Positions 1 to 24,498 of a stretch of 24,498 nt of DNA are shown here, one piece after another. Made by a program: the position numbers and the translations under genes. How positions within the stretch are numbered: the stretch's first letter is position 1; every line of letters begins with the position of its first letter. The notes beneath the pieces were generated by a model, which searched no databases, was not told the DNA's origin, and was given only the letters and a program-made list of their open reading frames with translations. The DNA comes from a virus: IMG/VR virus record IMGVR_UViG_3300005534_000045, positions 1 through 24,498 of that record; one strand, 5' to 3'.

Positions 1-24
1 GATGTTCCACGGAGATGTTCCACG
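1..24. repeat. 13-bp tandem repeat at the extreme tip
   Basis: GATGTTCCACG occurs at 1-11 and again at 14-24, a 13-bp period. The inverted copies lie at 24475-24498. The contig ends inside or at the edge of this repeat, so further units may exist outside the window. Iteron-like arrays are typical of replication origins and protein-bound ends, but two units are too few to claim that. Confidence 0.6.
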
Positions 25-61
25 TTATAGAGGTTATAAAGGAGGGTAGAGTATTGAGCGT

Positions 62-1324
62 TTAGCCTGGGTAAGAGTAGGTAGACGGCTGCCCTGGGGT
101 GTCGTATAATCGCCGGTACTGCACTGCTAGGTACCGAAATGAATCAGCGATATGTATTGCCCAGTTTTCGAGAGGATGCTTTTTATATACGCCTTTCTTT
201 TCATCAAATTCACGTTGAAACTCTCGTAATGCACGTACGGCTAAATCACAATTGATTTTATCGATACGCATACGCGGAAATAGATAGCGAACAGATTCAA
301 TACCATCCTCGATTGAAACTTTTGGAACCATTTGAAAGTGCCAACCGTAACGTCTTGCTTGCATGAGTCTAGATTCTGTATGTTCCCATCCTTGGTGCTT
401 TTGGTCGATATCATGGGGGCCGAAGTGATATCCCCATTCGCATCCGAAGTTTTGTCGTACGCGTTCAGCTTCATCGAGATAGCTTTTAAATCCTCGTCCT
501 GTATCATGGATAAGGTAAAGAACGTGAACAAATCTTCCAGTGACTTGGAAAAGGATTCCGGCTGTTGCATCAGTTCCTCCTAAATCCCATACAGTATGTA
601 ATTTTAAACGTGGGTCAGGTTTTAATTGCATGATACGACCTTCTCGTACCATATCACTCATTTCTCTGGTATAGTATGCACCCAAATTACCTACCTCGAA
701 ATCTACGAAGAATTCTTGGCGTATTAACTCGTCTGACATTCCCAAGTCTTTAGCGCGTTTAATGTCTTGCTGAGTAATGATTGGAGTAACACCATCATGT
801 TTAAATGTCTGGTCGACGCCAAGATGTTCGACGTGGTAATCTGGTAAATCTTTAACTTGATTGAAGACTTCCCAACCATGGTTCATTCCTCTAGGGGTAA
901 ACTGAAGAATCTCTTTTCCTTTATTTTGAACTATAATCGGGTTGAGATACTGGCGAGCCAAAGGATTATGAAGACTAAATTCAGAATAAATAATGGTAAC
1001 AGGATTAGATCCCATGAGTCCGTTATAATTATTTGAGCCTGCAAGAATAAGTTTACTACCATTAAAGAGATTGATTTCCATTCGTGCTTCATTGCGTTTA
1101 GAAACAAGTTGAGGCGGTATCGCATCCATGAAAGGACGTCCATCGAAGTCTAATCCCTGCCAGATAACTGAACGGGCTTGTTTGTGCAATGGAAAGAGGT
1201 ATACATGTGTACCAATCCTTTTGAGTCCACGCAGTAGCCATGCTTGGAGTGAGAAGATATCTTTTCCTGCTCTTCTATGTATGACGGCGCAGACATTTTT
1301 ATCTTCAACCATACCTTTGAACAT
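62..1324 (-). CDS. Terminase large subunit (packaging ATPase/nuclease)
   Basis: Motor that pumps phage DNA through the portal and cuts it. Counting from the first ATG, 420 residues show a Walker A variant HRRAGKD (16-22), a Walker B-like VTIIYSEF (109-116), and nuclease acidic positions in WDLGGTDAT (about 247), GPHD (about 305) and HIADSFRY (about 394). The first-ATG start is probably too short. The same frame runs upstream to a stop at 1376-1378 and encodes IPNILPYPHQAR, which resembles the conserved N-terminal segment before Walker A in this family. No ATG, GTG or TTG exists there; an ATT at 1370-1372, 7 bases behind AAAAGGA, is the best candidate start and gives 436 residues. The last 19 residues (from Y403) and the stop lie in the inverted terminal repeat, past the usual FRYLA end. 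The integrase gene is immediately upstream. Confidence 0.93.
   Translation of the reverse strand: MFKGMVEDKNVCAVIHRRAGKDIFSLQAWLLRGLKRIGTHVYLFPLHKQARSVIWQGLDFDGRPFMDAIPPQLVSKRNEARMEINLFNGSKLILAGSNNYNGLMGSNPVTIIYSEFSLHNPLARQYLNPIIVQNKGKEILQFTPRGMNHGWEVFNQVKDLPDYHVEHLGVDQTFKHDGVTPIITQQDIKRAKDLGMSDELIRQEFFVDFEVGNLGAYYTREMSDMVREGRIMQLKPDPRLKLHTVWDLGGTDATAGILFQVTGRFVHVLYLIHDTGRGFKSYLDEAERVRQNFGCEWGYHFGPHDIDQKHQGWEHTESRLMQARRYGWHFQMVPKVSIEDGIESVRYLFPRMRIDKINCDLAVRALREFQREFDEKKGVYKKHPLENWAIHIADSFRYLAVQYRRLYDTPGQPSTYSYPG
82..110 (+). promoter_or_regulatory. Mirror copy of the promoter, antisense to terL
   Basis: The inverted repeat places the same TAGACG-17 bp-TATAAT promoter (TATAAT at 105-110) at the left end, pointing rightward. 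Its transcript would run antisense into the large terminase gene and meet the leftward late transcripts head-on. No plus-strand gene follows it. Confidence 0.45.
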
Positions 1325-5025: not shown

Positions 5026-6246
5026 TTAACGAGCACGTCTTGCGTATATACCGCCATACATTGTAGTAGAACCAGCAGCAAAAACAGAAATTGCACTTAC
5101 GTAAACAATTGTGGTACTGGCTAATGATAAACGGACAAATGGAGATGTTATAGCTAAAAAAGAATGACTATTCGCACCTACGATACCAGAAAATAGAGAA
5201 GCATCCGGCTGGGTTGCAGAAGTCGTACTAGTCCAACATAATCCTTCACTTAATACGCTGCTAGCATTTTCCATCGTGACATTAGAATAAATATCCCAAT
5301 CACCAGCAGTTAAAGATATAGAAGTTAAGTCTTTTGCTGTTGCCGTAACCATTGAAACTGCGCTGCCGGAAGAAATTACGCTACTAATAAATTCTCCTAC
5401 ATTGCCAGTTATTGAATTTCCATTTGTACTTGTTCCTTGTATTCCAACACCTAAATTACCTTTACCTTGTAGTTGCAATAAAATATTTGTATCTGACCCT
5501 AATGCTTCAATAATAGGTTGTGATGTTGTTGGGGCATTTGATATTCCAACATAATTTACAGCAGTAGTAGATGCAAAAAAACTTAAAAGATTATTTCCAT
5601 TAATATCATTTATCGCTGATAAACGAGGTGATTGAGTACCACTTAATACATTACCAGCTCCAGCATAATAGGCAATTTGATAGGGAGAACCAATGTTAAT
5701 TGTTCCATTTATTCCACCACCAGGTGTAATGGTTATAGGAACTATTGCGGTGTTAGAACCATTTTTAGCCCACGTTTGATTTGCACCAAGAATAGGTAAT
5801 ATAGTATCTACAACGTCAATAATAACAGAAGAATAATTATATCTAGGGGCAATCAGTTGATTAACTAACTGCGCTTGTTGGTCAACAAGAGTTAGGATAC
5901 CAAAATCATTATTTAACATGCTGGGAGTAAAGTTCGTATTGGTGTAGAGGTTTTCTCTATCAGCCGGAGTCTGGCGAGTAATAGTAACAATGTCACCAAT
6001 ATTTACAGCTCCTGTTACCAGTGTCACTTGAACTTGCTGTTGACTTCCAATAAATGATACTGAGTAATCGGCTGGATATGAGAGAATTTGGGTTGCATCA
6101 TTAGGACTAGAATTAAGTTGTGTGTAGTAAACAACAACATCCGAAGCAGCATTTGCCGTCCAATTAGTGCCAAATACTGTTTGTCCTTGGCTAGTGGCTG
6201 GCGATTGAGTATATGGAAGAATATCTCCGATGACCACGTTAGACAT
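5026..6246 (-). CDS. Tail fibre with T7 gp17-type N-terminal domain (406 aa)
   Basis: Residues 1 to about 140 match the podovirus tail-fibre attachment domain that docks onto tail tubular proteins: an extended start, an FGTNWTANAASDVVVYY core, SYPADYSVSFIGSQQQVQV strands, DIVTITRQTPADRENLY, then DFGILTLVDQQAQL leading into the coiled shaft. The middle is Gly/Asn-rich. The C-terminal region of about 120 residues (SLTAGDWDIYSNVTM ... TMYGGIYARRAR) looks like a beta-sandwich tip that may bind the host receptor. At 406 residues it is shorter than T7 gp17 (553). AGGGAG precedes the ATG, and the gene overlaps the end of the GIY-YIG gene by 8 bases. Confidence 0.86.
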   Translation of the reverse strand: MSNVVIGDILPYTQSPATSQGQTVFGTNWTANAASDVVVYYTQLNSSPNDATQILSYPADYSVSFIGSQQQVQVTLVTGAVNIGDIVTITRQTPADRENLYTNTNFTPSMLNNDFGILTLVDQQAQLVNQLIAPRYNYSSVIIDVVDTILPILGANQTWAKNGSNTAIVPITITPGGGINGTINIGSPYQIAYYAGAGNVLSGTQSPRLSAINDINGNNLLSFFASTTAVNYVGISNAPTTSQPIIEALGSDTNILLQLQGKGNLGVGIQGTSTNGNSITGNVGEFISSVISSGSAVSMVTATAKDLTSISLTAGDWDIYSNVTMENASSVLSEGLCWTSTTSATQPDASLFSGIVGANSHSFLAITSPFVRLSLASTTIVYVSAISVFAAGSTTMYGGIYARRAR

Positions 6247-6868
6247 TTTTATTCTCCCTAAATTTATGCCATCTTTCTTTGGCTGCTTTACTTATGGCAG
6301 CACGATGGGCATCCGATTTTATATGTCCTTTTTGGATAAATGTTTTTGAAACTTTCTCTCTCCATAAAGGGTCTTGAGAACGTTTTTTAGCAGCTAATTT
6401 CATTTTTAATTTTGTTTCTTTTGAAATAATTTTACCTTTATGAGCTTTACCAATTTTATCTTTTTGTTCTTGAGTATGTTTCTTACCGTTCCAAGTTGCT
6501 AGTTTTTTTCTTTCTTCCTCTGATTTAATTCTTCCTCTATTAGCATTACCAATTTTAATTTTTGTTTCTTCATGAACACGAGAGTTATTACCGCCTGCTC
6601 TTATATTGTATCCATTAGGTTTAATGGTATTAAAATATTTAATATAAAACTCTTCCCAAAAGCTAGCTTCTTCAAGTGTTAATCCATCTTTCAGGATTTC
6701 ATGTTTGAAATTATTCCAACCATACTTTTGAATAGCATTATAAAAGGCACGAGATTTACTAGGTCTTTGATGTTCCCAGCATCGTCTTTGATAATTAAAA
6801 GTCTGTCCGATATAAGACTTACCGTTTGGAGCGGTATGTTTATATACCAAGTATAAAACTTGAGACAT
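6239..6868 (-). CDS. GIY-YIG homing endonuclease with NUMOD3-like repeats
   Basis: DNA endonuclease of 209 residues. The N-terminal GIY-YIG nuclease domain (about 4-95) shows YLVYKHT (LVY in place of GIY), SYIGQT (19-21 YIG), Arg28/29 and catalytic-type Glu72 in ASFWEEF. The C-terminal half contains Lys-rich NUMOD3-like DNA-binding repeats such as HEETKIKIGNANRGR and SKETKLKMKLAAKKR. It sits between the large internal virion gene and the tail-fibre gene, on the same strand and expressed with them (AAGGATAATAAATT before the ATG). No intron boundary is visible and both neighbours look intact, so it is a freestanding homing gene. Confidence 0.9.
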   Translation of the reverse strand: MSQVLYLVYKHTAPNGKSYIGQTFNYQRRCWEHQRPSKSRAFYNAIQKYGWNNFKHEILKDGLTLEEASFWEEFYIKYFNTIKPNGYNIRAGGNNSRVHEETKIKIGNANRGRIKSEEERKKLATWNGKKHTQEQKDKIGKAHKGKIISKETKLKMKLAAKKRSQDPLWREKVSKTFIQKGHIKSDAHRAAISKAAKERWHKFRENKNV

Positions 6869-17053: not shown

Positions 17054-17584
17054 ATGTCATCTATTTGCAATGTTCCTTTTTGTCAAAATATCAAAAAGAA
17101 AAGTTCTGGTCTATGTAGCCAACATTGTTATGAAAAAACTAAATACAATGTTAAAAAATATAAAGAATTTTTGCCATTATGGTCAGTAAAAAGATGTAAT
17201 AAACATGGATTATTAAAAAAATCTCAGACTTATTATCATCCTTCAAATAAAATTTATATGTGTCTACAATGTAAGCCCCCTTATAATCCTGAAATTCATA
17301 AAAAATATAATGGTCGTTATAAAACTAAATCAAAAGAATCCAGATTAAAAAAAATATATGGAATATCAATATCTGATTTTCATGGCCTTATACATAAACA
17401 ACAGGGTAAATGTGCTATTTGTATGCAGCCTTCGAAGAGAAAATCTTTAGCTATAGACCATTGTCATGTAACTGGAAAAGTTCGTGAACTTTTATGTGGA
17501 GAATGCAATAGAGGACTAGGATATTTTTATGAAAATATTCAATTTTTAGAATCTGCAATTAATTATCTAAGCCGCCATAAATGA
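17054..17584 (+). CDS. Recombination endonuclease VII / HNH-type nuclease (176 aa)
   Basis: Freestanding nuclease on the strand opposite its neighbours. An N-terminal Cys/His cluster (C5, C10, C21, H24) and a second Cys pair (C70, C73) look like zinc sites. Residues about 98-172 are an endonuclease VII domain: KKIYGIS, zinc ligands C120 and C123, the active-site DHCH (135-138) with VTGKVRELLC, then C148-x2-C151 and N152. T4 endonuclease VII cleaves branched DNA, while isolated homologues between phage genes usually behave as homing endonucleases; I favour the latter. AATGAGGTCAAG gives a good ribosome-binding site. The gene is visibly richer in A and T than the structural genes. Its last codons lie within a hairpin. 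Confidence 0.9.
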   Translation: MSSICNVPFCQNIKKKSSGLCSQHCYEKTKYNVKKYKEFLPLWSVKRCNKHGLLKKSQTYYHPSNKIYMCLQCKPPYNPEIHKKYNGRYKTKSKESRLKKIYGISISDFHGLIHKQQGKCAICMQPSKRKSLAIDHCHVTGKVRELLCGECNRGLGYFYENIQFLESAINYLSRHK

Positions 17585-23228: not shown

Positions 23229-23705
23229 ATGTTAAATATTAATCAATTTAGAGAGTTAATTGTTAAGTCTAGTCTTAATGACTTACTGATGTATTCTGAA
23301 GATGCTGAAGAACTAATGGTATTTACATGCGCTACTGAATCATTAGGAGGTACATATTTAGCACAAATCGGTGGGCCAGCTCTTGGCATCTATCAAATGG
23401 AACCAATGACCTATAATGACATCTGGCAGACTTACATTAACTTGCATGGCCCATTAACATTAAGATTATTTGCTAACTTTAATATTTCTAACATGCCAGA
23501 AGAATCACGACTTATCTATGACTTACGCTTCGCAACAGCTATGACCAGATTATTTTATGCTCGAATTAATGAACCTTTACCATGTTCCAAAGATGAAAAT
23601 GCAATATGGGAATATTACAAAAAATATTATAACACTTCAAAAGGTGCAGCAATTAAAGAGGTTTCTATCCAGCGTTATCATGATTTTGTGCAATCTCATC
23701 GCTAA
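23229..23705 (+). CDS. Lysozyme/transglycosylase-like protein (158 aa)
   Basis: Probable murein hydrolase. Residues 33-60 show the lysozyme-superfamily layout: catalytic-type Glu37 in CATESLGG, then ALGIYQMEP (51-59), equivalent to the G-L-(M/Y)-Q motif of soluble lytic transglycosylases, followed by an aromatic helix. The rest is helical (ATAMTRLFYARI, WEYYKKYYN). No signal peptide. It is one of only two plus-strand genes, and its 3' end overlaps the leftward 85-aa gene by 41 bases in convergent orientation. It could be the endolysin or a virion-borne lytic enzyme, replacing the domain missing from the 1370-aa core protein. No holin gene is visible beside it. Confidence 0.7.
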   Translation: MLNINQFRELIVKSSLNDLLMYSEDAEELMVFTCATESLGGTYLAQIGGPALGIYQMEPMTYNDIWQTYINLHGPLTLRLFANFNISNMPEESRLIYDLRFATAMTRLFYARINEPLPCSKDENAIWEYYKKYYNTSKGAAIKEVSIQRYHDFVQSHR

Positions 23706-23922
23706 CATCTTTGTACATGGCTACTAATGTAGTTGTATTGACATTACAAAAACAAACCCGACAAAGAAATCGTGAAACTCGTTTATATTTGATGCTATCT
23801 TTCTCTACGTAAAAATACTCTATTGGTATGTAATCATGCGGCCCGCGATTCTTACCACACAATTCTATTAACTCTCTTTTTCTTCTAGCTTCTGCTTCAT
23901 CTCTTGCAGGGTGCAAACTCAT
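23665..23922 (-). CDS. Third gene of anti-defence operon, putative zinc-binding (85 aa)
   Basis: I do not recognise the family with certainty. Acidic/basic N-terminal helix (ARDEAEARRKRELIEL), then a possible metal site: C22 and H29 (in CGKNRGPHDYIP) with C54-x2-C57 (FLCRVCFCNV), the spacing of a small zinc ribbon with a beta hairpin between. Its ATG overlaps the stop of the Tad2-like gene by four bases (ATGA), so the three genes are translated as a unit. The context suggests a role in early host takeover or defence evasion; this is guilt by association only. Confidence 0.7.
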   Translation of the reverse strand: MSLHPARDEAEARRKRELIELCGKNRGPHDYIPIEYFYVEKDSIKYKRVSRFLCRVCFCNVNTTTLVAMYKDVSDEIAQNHDNAG

Positions 23923-24167
23923 AATACGATTTCATCCGGATTGATTTGAGGTTTAGATTTAATCTGTTCTACTACTTCCCAGTCCATAGCTAATATGTCT
24001 TCTGAACTTGCGGCATACATAATGCAATTATTAATTGTTCGAACTTCGACATGGTTAATATTATTCAGTTTATTTTTAACCAGATAAACAGTGGCTTTGC
24101 CACCCCATTTCTTTCGTGTTACTCGCAAACCGGTATTAATAGCATCTAAAGCTTCTTTGAAATTCAT
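23919..24167 (-). CDS. tad2: Tad2-like anti-Thoeris protein (DUF2829) (82 aa)
   Basis: Matches the DUF2829/Tad2 domain over its whole length: MNFKEALDAINTGLRVTRKKW at the start (the M-NF-EAL-a-l--G--V-R--W signature), TVYLV strand, and a C-terminal SSEDILAMDWEVVE (the D-LA-DW-VV signature). Tad2 proteins form oligomers that trap the gcADPR signal made by Thoeris TIR enzymes; some also bind CBASS cyclic nucleotides. I chose the ATG at 24167 because it starts the domain, has AAGG 8 bases upstream, and overlaps the stop of the Acb2-like gene by ATGA. A start at 24188 would add seven residues not typical of the family. The last 15 residues are a free tail. Confidence 0.85.
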   Translation of the reverse strand: MNFKEALDAINTGLRVTRKKWGGKATVYLVKNKLNNINHVEVRTINNCIMYAASSEDILAMDWEVVEQIKSKPQINPDEIVL

Positions 24168-24367
24168 GTAATTGCCTTGACTGCCCACATAACTGATTGC
24201 TCAAGATTTGTTTTAGCTAATGCCATCGAACGTGCATCTATACTCATATTTGCATTAAGAGATTCAAATGTATCTAATAACTCTTCTGCTTTCTCTTTTA
24301 TCATTAATATAGAATCTTTTTGCAATGGGTCTAATTGCTTATATTCTTTGCGAAATGTATCTGACAT
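24164..24367 (-). CDS. acb2: Acb2-like cyclic-oligonucleotide sponge (anti-CBASS) (67 aa)
   Basis: Short two-to-three-helix protein that fits the Acb2/Tad1-hairpin family. The N-terminal pattern Y9-K-Q-L...ILMIKEKAEELL is followed by a linker and the C-terminal helix DARSMALAKTNLEQSVMWAV, matching the family's D-R--AI-KT-LQ-G-MAL-RA signature. From memory, Acb2 of Pseudomonas phage PaMx33 uses Tyr11 and Lys26 to bind cGAMP; here Tyr9 and Lys24 keep the same 15-residue spacing. At 67 residues it is shorter than that Acb2 (about 94). It is the first gene behind the repeat-borne promoter, with TGGAGG five bases before the ATG. Family assignment is by eye and needs a profile search. Confidence 0.7.
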   Translation of the reverse strand: MSDTFRKEYKQLDPLQKDSILMIKEKAEELLDTFESLNANMSIDARSMALAKTNLEQSVMWAVKAIT

Positions 24368-24378
24368 TTATACCTCCA

Positions 24379-24498
24379 AGTACCGGCGATTATACGACAC
24401 CCCAGGGCAGCCGTCTACCTACTCTTACCCAGGCTAAACGCTCAATACTCTACCCTCCTTTATAACCTCTATAACGTGGAACATCTCCGTGGAACATC
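24379..24498. repeat. Right arm of 120-bp inverted terminal repeat
   Basis: Perfect reverse complement of bases 1-120. Here the arm lies directly upstream of the leftward Acb2-like gene: the repeat ends one base before that gene's GGAGG ribosome-binding site. On this side it therefore acts as a promoter/leader. On the other side the same bases encode the end of the large terminase. Confidence 0.95.
24389..24417 (-). promoter_or_regulatory. Sigma70-type promoter in right repeat, drives the anti-defence operon
   Basis: Read leftward, TAGACG (24412-24417, 4 of 6 matches to TTGACA), a 17-bp spacer and a perfect TATAAT (24389-24394). Transcription would start near 24382, about 15 bases before the ATG of the Acb2-like gene, leaving room only for its TGGAGG site. 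It is the only strong promoter I see for the leftward genes, so it may serve most of the window by read-through. Predicted from consensus only. Confidence 0.6.

Follow-up and report, generated by a model that had tools for sequence, protein, structure and literature searches.

The small minus-strand operon at one end of the viral DNA analyzed here (the window, all 24,498 nucleotides of IMG/VR record IMGVR_UViG_3300005534_000045) is probably an early accessory slot that encodes two independent sponges, predicted from family membership to capture CBASS cyclic nucleotides and Thoeris ADP-ribose signals, respectively. Both sponge families are already known, and the operon adds one member of each. 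Their pairing is more suggestive of chance than of a purpose-built machine, because the corresponding slot in related phages holds one sponge, another small gene, or none. The window itself is a structural arm that was broken off at an inverted repeat in assembly.

In the proposed scheme, the operon is a small accessory unit at one end of the structural arm of an uncultured podovirus-like phage, probably of ~35 kb, and would be read from a promoter inside the inverted repeat. The product of gene 1 most likely forms an oligomeric Acb2-type sponge, and its binding of cyclic di- and trinucleotides would silence CBASS. The product of gene 2 most likely serves as a Tad2-type sponge for a TIR-made ADP-ribose signal (gcADPR or His-ADPR), an interaction that would silence Thoeris. 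Known Acb2 sponges act as hexamers and known Tad2 sponges as tetramers. Gene 3 would be a conserved phage gene that marks the locus and probably binds zinc. We infer the ligands, the oligomerization, and the independence of the two sponges. The features on which this scheme is built are collected in Table 1.

Table 1 Features of the operon, its surroundings, and the ends of the window
Feature	Coordinates	Strand	Remarks
Inverted repeat copy 1 (left end)	1..120		Covers the last terminase codons
Terminase large subunit	62..1324	-	phrog_2472 E 1e-28; phrog_2 (terminase large subunit) E 2.5e-14; last codons in copy 1
Convergent neighbor, phrog_3108	23229..23705	+	E 3.8e-35; overlaps gene 3 3' end by 41 bases
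Gene 3, orphan, 85 aa, conserved anchor gene of the lineage	23665..23922	-	ATGA overlap with gene 2
Gene 2, short Tad2-family (DUF2829) protein, 82 aa from ATG	23919..24167	-	PF11195 E 1.5e-13; ATGA overlap with gene 1
Gene 1, Acb2-family protein, predicted cyclic-oligonucleotide sponge, 67 aa	24164..24367	-	PF24729 E 4.2e-14
Inverted repeat copy 2 (right end)	24379..24498		Copy of the terminase gene 3' end
Promoter-like site TAGACG-17-TATAAT	24389..24417	-	~20 bases upstream of gene 1 start codon; 10/12 positions match

The operon consists of three small ORFs between 23665 and 24367, joined, as the sequence-only reading had described, by ATGA overlaps; both consecutive junctions read as ATGA on the minus strand. 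The ORF list gives gene 2 a longer GTG start at 24188, with an ATG alternative at 24167. The GTG is probably unused, because the four closest relatives begin at the equivalent of the ATG. A ribosome-binding-like GGAGG can be read directly upstream of gene 1. The near-consensus promoter that had been proposed ahead of the operon stands in part. The site is present, within the perfect 120-bp inverted repeat, and its TATAAT element is retained in ~14 of 25 readable relatives; promoter-like sites as such show no excess in the region, with 5 found versus 7.9 expected in shuffles. Support for the site comes, therefore, from its position and its retention in relatives. Early expression of the operon is plausible, with both promoter use and timing presumed.

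The assignment of gene 1 to the Acb2 family, made initially by eye, is upheld by profile searches. The protein scores 52.9 bits against PF24729 (Acb2/Tad1 hairpin), well above the curated cut-off of 27. A single-sequence phmmer search of the PDB with gene 1 gives no match; a profile built from 17 of its relatives finds Acb2 (8h2j and 8ixz), T4 Vs.4 (7uq2), and a short homologue (9ptq). By these profile criteria, gene 1 encodes a true member of the Acb2 family. The alignment of the relatives' profile also places Tyr9 and Lys24, the two residues singled out in the sequence-only reading, at Tyr11 and Lys26 of 8h2j, the latter presumably an important residue of the dinucleotide site. A block comprising R46, T53, N54, and W61 is conserved among gene 1 relatives. 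In T4 Acb2, the Y8A variant no longer binds dinucleotides, and a stacking contact with the ligand is made by Phe82 (PMC12657218). Gene 1 closes with Thr67, which probably stands at the place of this Phe82. The equivalence is read from where the alignment ends, since the profile alignment stops just short of the T4 Phe82 position.

The Tad2 (DUF2829) assignment of gene 2 is likewise confirmed, by sequence and by predicted fold. Its match to PF11195 (Tad2-like) reaches 51.5 bits, with a curated cut-off of 25, and a gene 2 profile run against solved structures returns Myroides Tad2 (8v3e and 9eib) as the best matches, with SPO1 Tad2 lower down. An AlphaFold model of gene 2 computed from seven sequences has a pLDDT of 83, and Foldseek places Tad2 structures in all of the top 21 positions for this model (TM (query) 0.65-0.72, best E 1.2e-5), including SPO1 Tad2 and Myroides Tad2 at E 1e-5 to 1e-4 and TM about 0.7. 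Judged by the Pfam match and the fold of the model, gene 2 truly belongs to the Tad2 family, although its protein is short.

Solved structures of the family contain several ligands: His-ADPR in ModTad2, gcADPR in SPO1 Tad2, and cGG in SptTad2 (101 aa). Cyclic dinucleotide binding by Tad2 has been attributed to an insertion between strands (PMC12043709), an element that is not required for ADP-ribose binding. In alignment with ModTad2 and the Tad2-like protein of L077, gene 2 has a shorter core and lacks the insertion. SPO1 Tad2, for its part, fails to bind 3'3'-cGAMP (PMC11722364). Taken together, the shortened core and the behavior of SPO1 Tad2 lead to the expectation of an ADP-ribose type ligand for gene 2, so that, as far as the alignments allow a prediction, the ligands of genes 1 and 2 probably do not overlap.

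Gene 3, which had been described as unknown, indeed remains without a family. Comparison with Pfam, PHROG, PDB sequences, solved folds, and viral models gives no meaningful match, and none of 50,697 phage records contains a match. A profile search of viral contigs, by contrast with these negative searches, recovers 35 related loci. Nine residues (Cys22, Gly23, Asn25, Gly27, Pro28, His29, Tyr31, Cys54, and Cys57) are invariant in 30 aligned members, defining a C22-x6-H29 plus C54-x2-C57 signature, and in the model of the protein a long helix leads into a beta hairpin that ends at the CxxC. The C..H..CxxC arrangement is likely a zinc site, to judge from the residues conserved. The phrog_3108 gene adjoins gene 3 in those relatives whose ORFs were read. 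Among bacterial genome assemblies, a relative of gene 3 turns up just once, on a 4.6-kb contig (L078, CAIKYO010000050.1) from a metagenome bin of Burkholderiales, which points only weakly to a host group.

Comparison of these loci reveals that gene 3 is constant in ~30 related viral lineages (near-identical contigs merged by eye), preceded by a slot that holds Acb2-like genes, Tad2-like genes, other genes, or none, the calls of an empty slot being of lower confidence where a contig begins inside it. Acb2-family genes above the cut-off lie directly before gene 3 in L055, L056/L057, L058, L064, and L069. A Tad2-like gene occupies this position in the four closest relatives (G021-G024), none of which has an Acb2 match, and in L042/L043. 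In the latter, the Tad2-like gene is preceded by a weakly Acb2-like gene, which scores 16.5 bits versus the Pfam cut-off of 27 and aligns to Acb2 by hhalign with E 2e-4 and a probability of 47%. The Acb2 and Tad2 genes are replaced in further relatives by small slot genes (L026:121-402, L060:96-455, L067:3747-3974, and L072:3604-3861) that have no match in Pfam. These four are candidates for new counter-defense genes.

The sequence-only reading had suggested that the two sponges, paired as one translationally coupled unit, work together against related signals. The ATGA coupling itself fits this description, as does the order of genes in L042/L043, where a weakly Acb2-like gene again precedes a Tad2-like gene and gene 3. 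The L042/L043 case lies under the Pfam cut-off, however, and each sponge is also found without the other, the Tad2-like gene in the four close relatives and Acb2-like genes directly ahead of gene 3 in five other lineages. Among the ~30 gene 3 lineages, Acb2 occurs above the cut-off in 6 and Tad2 in 6, and the two are joined above their cut-offs only in the window. With these counts, the hypergeometric probability of at least one joint lineage is 0.77, and that of at least two, counting the weak L042/L043 case, is 0.43. A survey for the same gene pair elsewhere gives a similar picture, with a Tad2-family match in 0 of 20 other viral contigs that carry a relative of this Acb2. Conservation of the pair as a unit is thus rejected, joint occurrence being no higher than chance, and cooperation of the sponges is left unsupported; a dedicated joint unit is very unlikely. 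The pairing calls for no further explanation than that two useful genes have both entered this slot. That the Tad2 fold of gene 2 performs a different job altogether, acting on another nucleotide or inhibiting CRISPR-Cas like AcrIIA7 of the same family, is an unlikely reading with somewhat more in its favor. PF11195 is broad, and membership leaves the ligand unfixed because the family profile also picks up type II CRISPR-Cas inhibitor entries (8kbi and AcrIIA7 9kzr). One PHROG of the Tad2-like family carries the label transcription regulation, and the shortened core of gene 2 is accompanied by diverged loops (NKLNNINH and MYAASSED), because of which the ligand could differ. Against this stand the nearest solved relatives by both sequence and fold, which are the Thoeris sponges ModTad2 and SPO1 Tad2, and the sharing of the slot with Acb2-like genes.

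The role of gene 3 bears on how the slot as a whole is understood. Its position is suggestive of an Aca-like regulator that marks a counter-defense slot, in which case the other slot genes would be undiscovered counter-defense genes: it always lies downstream, in most cases overlaps the gene in the slot, and stays conserved despite changes in slot content. A helix-turn-helix search, however, gives no match above the cut-off among 30 members, the protein has no fold match, and the gene is retained even where the slot seems empty. Because of this retention, a core phage gene fits better than an Aca-like regulator, and the regulator is improbable. A broader proposal would make the gene 3 slot a locus dedicated to counter-defense across a large lineage of uncultured phages. 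Gene 3 would then be a new kind of partner (a zinc-binding regulator or co-factor), and slot genes such as those of L026, L060, L067, and L072 would be undiscovered immunity inhibitors; this proposal is speculative and unlikely. The preferred reading, two independent sponges in an accessory slot beside a conserved phage gene, accommodates the variation in slot content described above.

The genomic setting differs from that assumed at the outset, when the operon was thought to belong to a very small phage that otherwise carries only structural genes. The window ends in a perfect 120-bp inverted repeat (1-120 and 24379-24498), and the ORFs that end in its two copies have residues YRRLYDTPGQPSTYSYPG in common. 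Equivalent repeats of 69-217 bp, again inverted copies of the terminase 3' end, flank the structural arm in at least 10 relatives, in independent assemblies with differing sequences (127 bp in G021; 121-127 bp in G028, G029, G030, G035, and G042; 99 bp in G047; and 217 bp in G032). Six relatives of 30.6-35.3 kb (G025, G032, G037, G038, G050, and G054) run past the copy on the gene 3 side. Beyond the repeat, the relatives of 33-35 kb contain an 11-14 kb arm whose genes serve recombination and regulation; in the two contigs read in detail they include a DUF3799 nuclease, RusA, and HTH and AlpA-like genes. Two others (G035 and G046) run past the terminase-side copy. The very small phage is therefore not borne out. 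The picture of structural genes alone is an assembly artifact, and with it goes the argument that the cassette is exceptional in a minimal genome. On the basis of these longer relatives and of annotated portal relatives of 34-35 kb, the genome of the window's phage is probably ~35 kb.

Two other explanations of the ends were considered and rejected. A small phi29-like phage with terminal inverted repeats would account for the repeats, which are real, but relatives continue past either copy. A provirus in a host chromosome would account for the sequence outside the repeat; tRNA and Rfam searches come back empty, and the genes in the outer arm are of phage type. Outside the repeat, the non-structural arm carries a conserved G-rich element of ~60 bases (...GGGGGCGGGG...GATTCCGGTGCCCCACAACTC...), seen at L042:3250-3340, L049:3640-3740, L045:330-430, and ~ten more loci, and the sequence into which G035 and G046 run contains the same element. 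It has no match in Rfam or among tRNAs and may be an origin, a packaging site, or a structured RNA. Outer sequence with this element joins either repeat copy in different contigs (L031/L032 and L098/L091), a possible sign of arm inversion or of ambiguous assembly. With either cause, inversion of the arms at the repeat or a repeat that assemblers fail to resolve, the window is an arm of a larger genome.

Several other genes of the window deserve mention. A GIY-YIG/NUMOD3 homing-type endonuclease (6239-6868) lies among the structural genes, as does an endonuclease VII-type gene on the opposite strand (17054-17584). Beside the terminase is a tyrosine recombinase (1389-2354, Phage_integrase E 2e-18), which suggests a temperate phage or a recombinase that acts on the genome arms.

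If both sponges work, a single short transcript would let one phage block two separate alarm pathways. For new counter-defense genes in uncultured phages, the variable slot that precedes gene 3 is a concrete place to search. A further implication concerns the lineage's 21-24 kb contigs in IMG/VR: they could be taken for small phages, complete and ending in inverted repeats, but are structural arms without the rest of the genome.

The nearest annotated portal proteins, 28-30% identical, belong to Methylophilales phage MEP301 and Pelagibacter phage EXVC031P; a portal search of genome contigs yielded nothing useful. The 34-35 kb genomes of these phages are similar in size to the full genome proposed here, whereas gene 3 sets the present lineage apart from them, as it does from all phage records searched. 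Relative to Acb2 of Pseudomonas phage p26 and T4 Vs.4 (PF24729), gene 1 shares the hairpin domain and the aligned Tyr and Lys residues, but it is 67 aa long rather than ~90 aa, its hairpin is shorter by ~20 residues, and it appears to end, at Thr67, where T4 has Phe82. Gene 2 resembles the Tad2/DUF2829 proteins SPO1 Gp34.65 and Myroides ModTad2 (PF11195) in fold and in its motifs, NF-EAL...R-W-GK at the N-terminus and D-LA-DW at the C-terminus; it differs in a core ~18 residues shorter than that of ModTad2, in its pocket loops, and in an extra C-terminal tail of ~15 residues. At the level of the locus, the closest parallel is with known clusters of small counter-defense genes, such as that holding acb4 in SPO1-like phages (PMC11722364), in which small genes of varying content likewise lie beside conserved genes. 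The locus described here is distinguished from these clusters by its place next to the terminase-end inverted repeat and by gene 3 as a fixed downstream partner.
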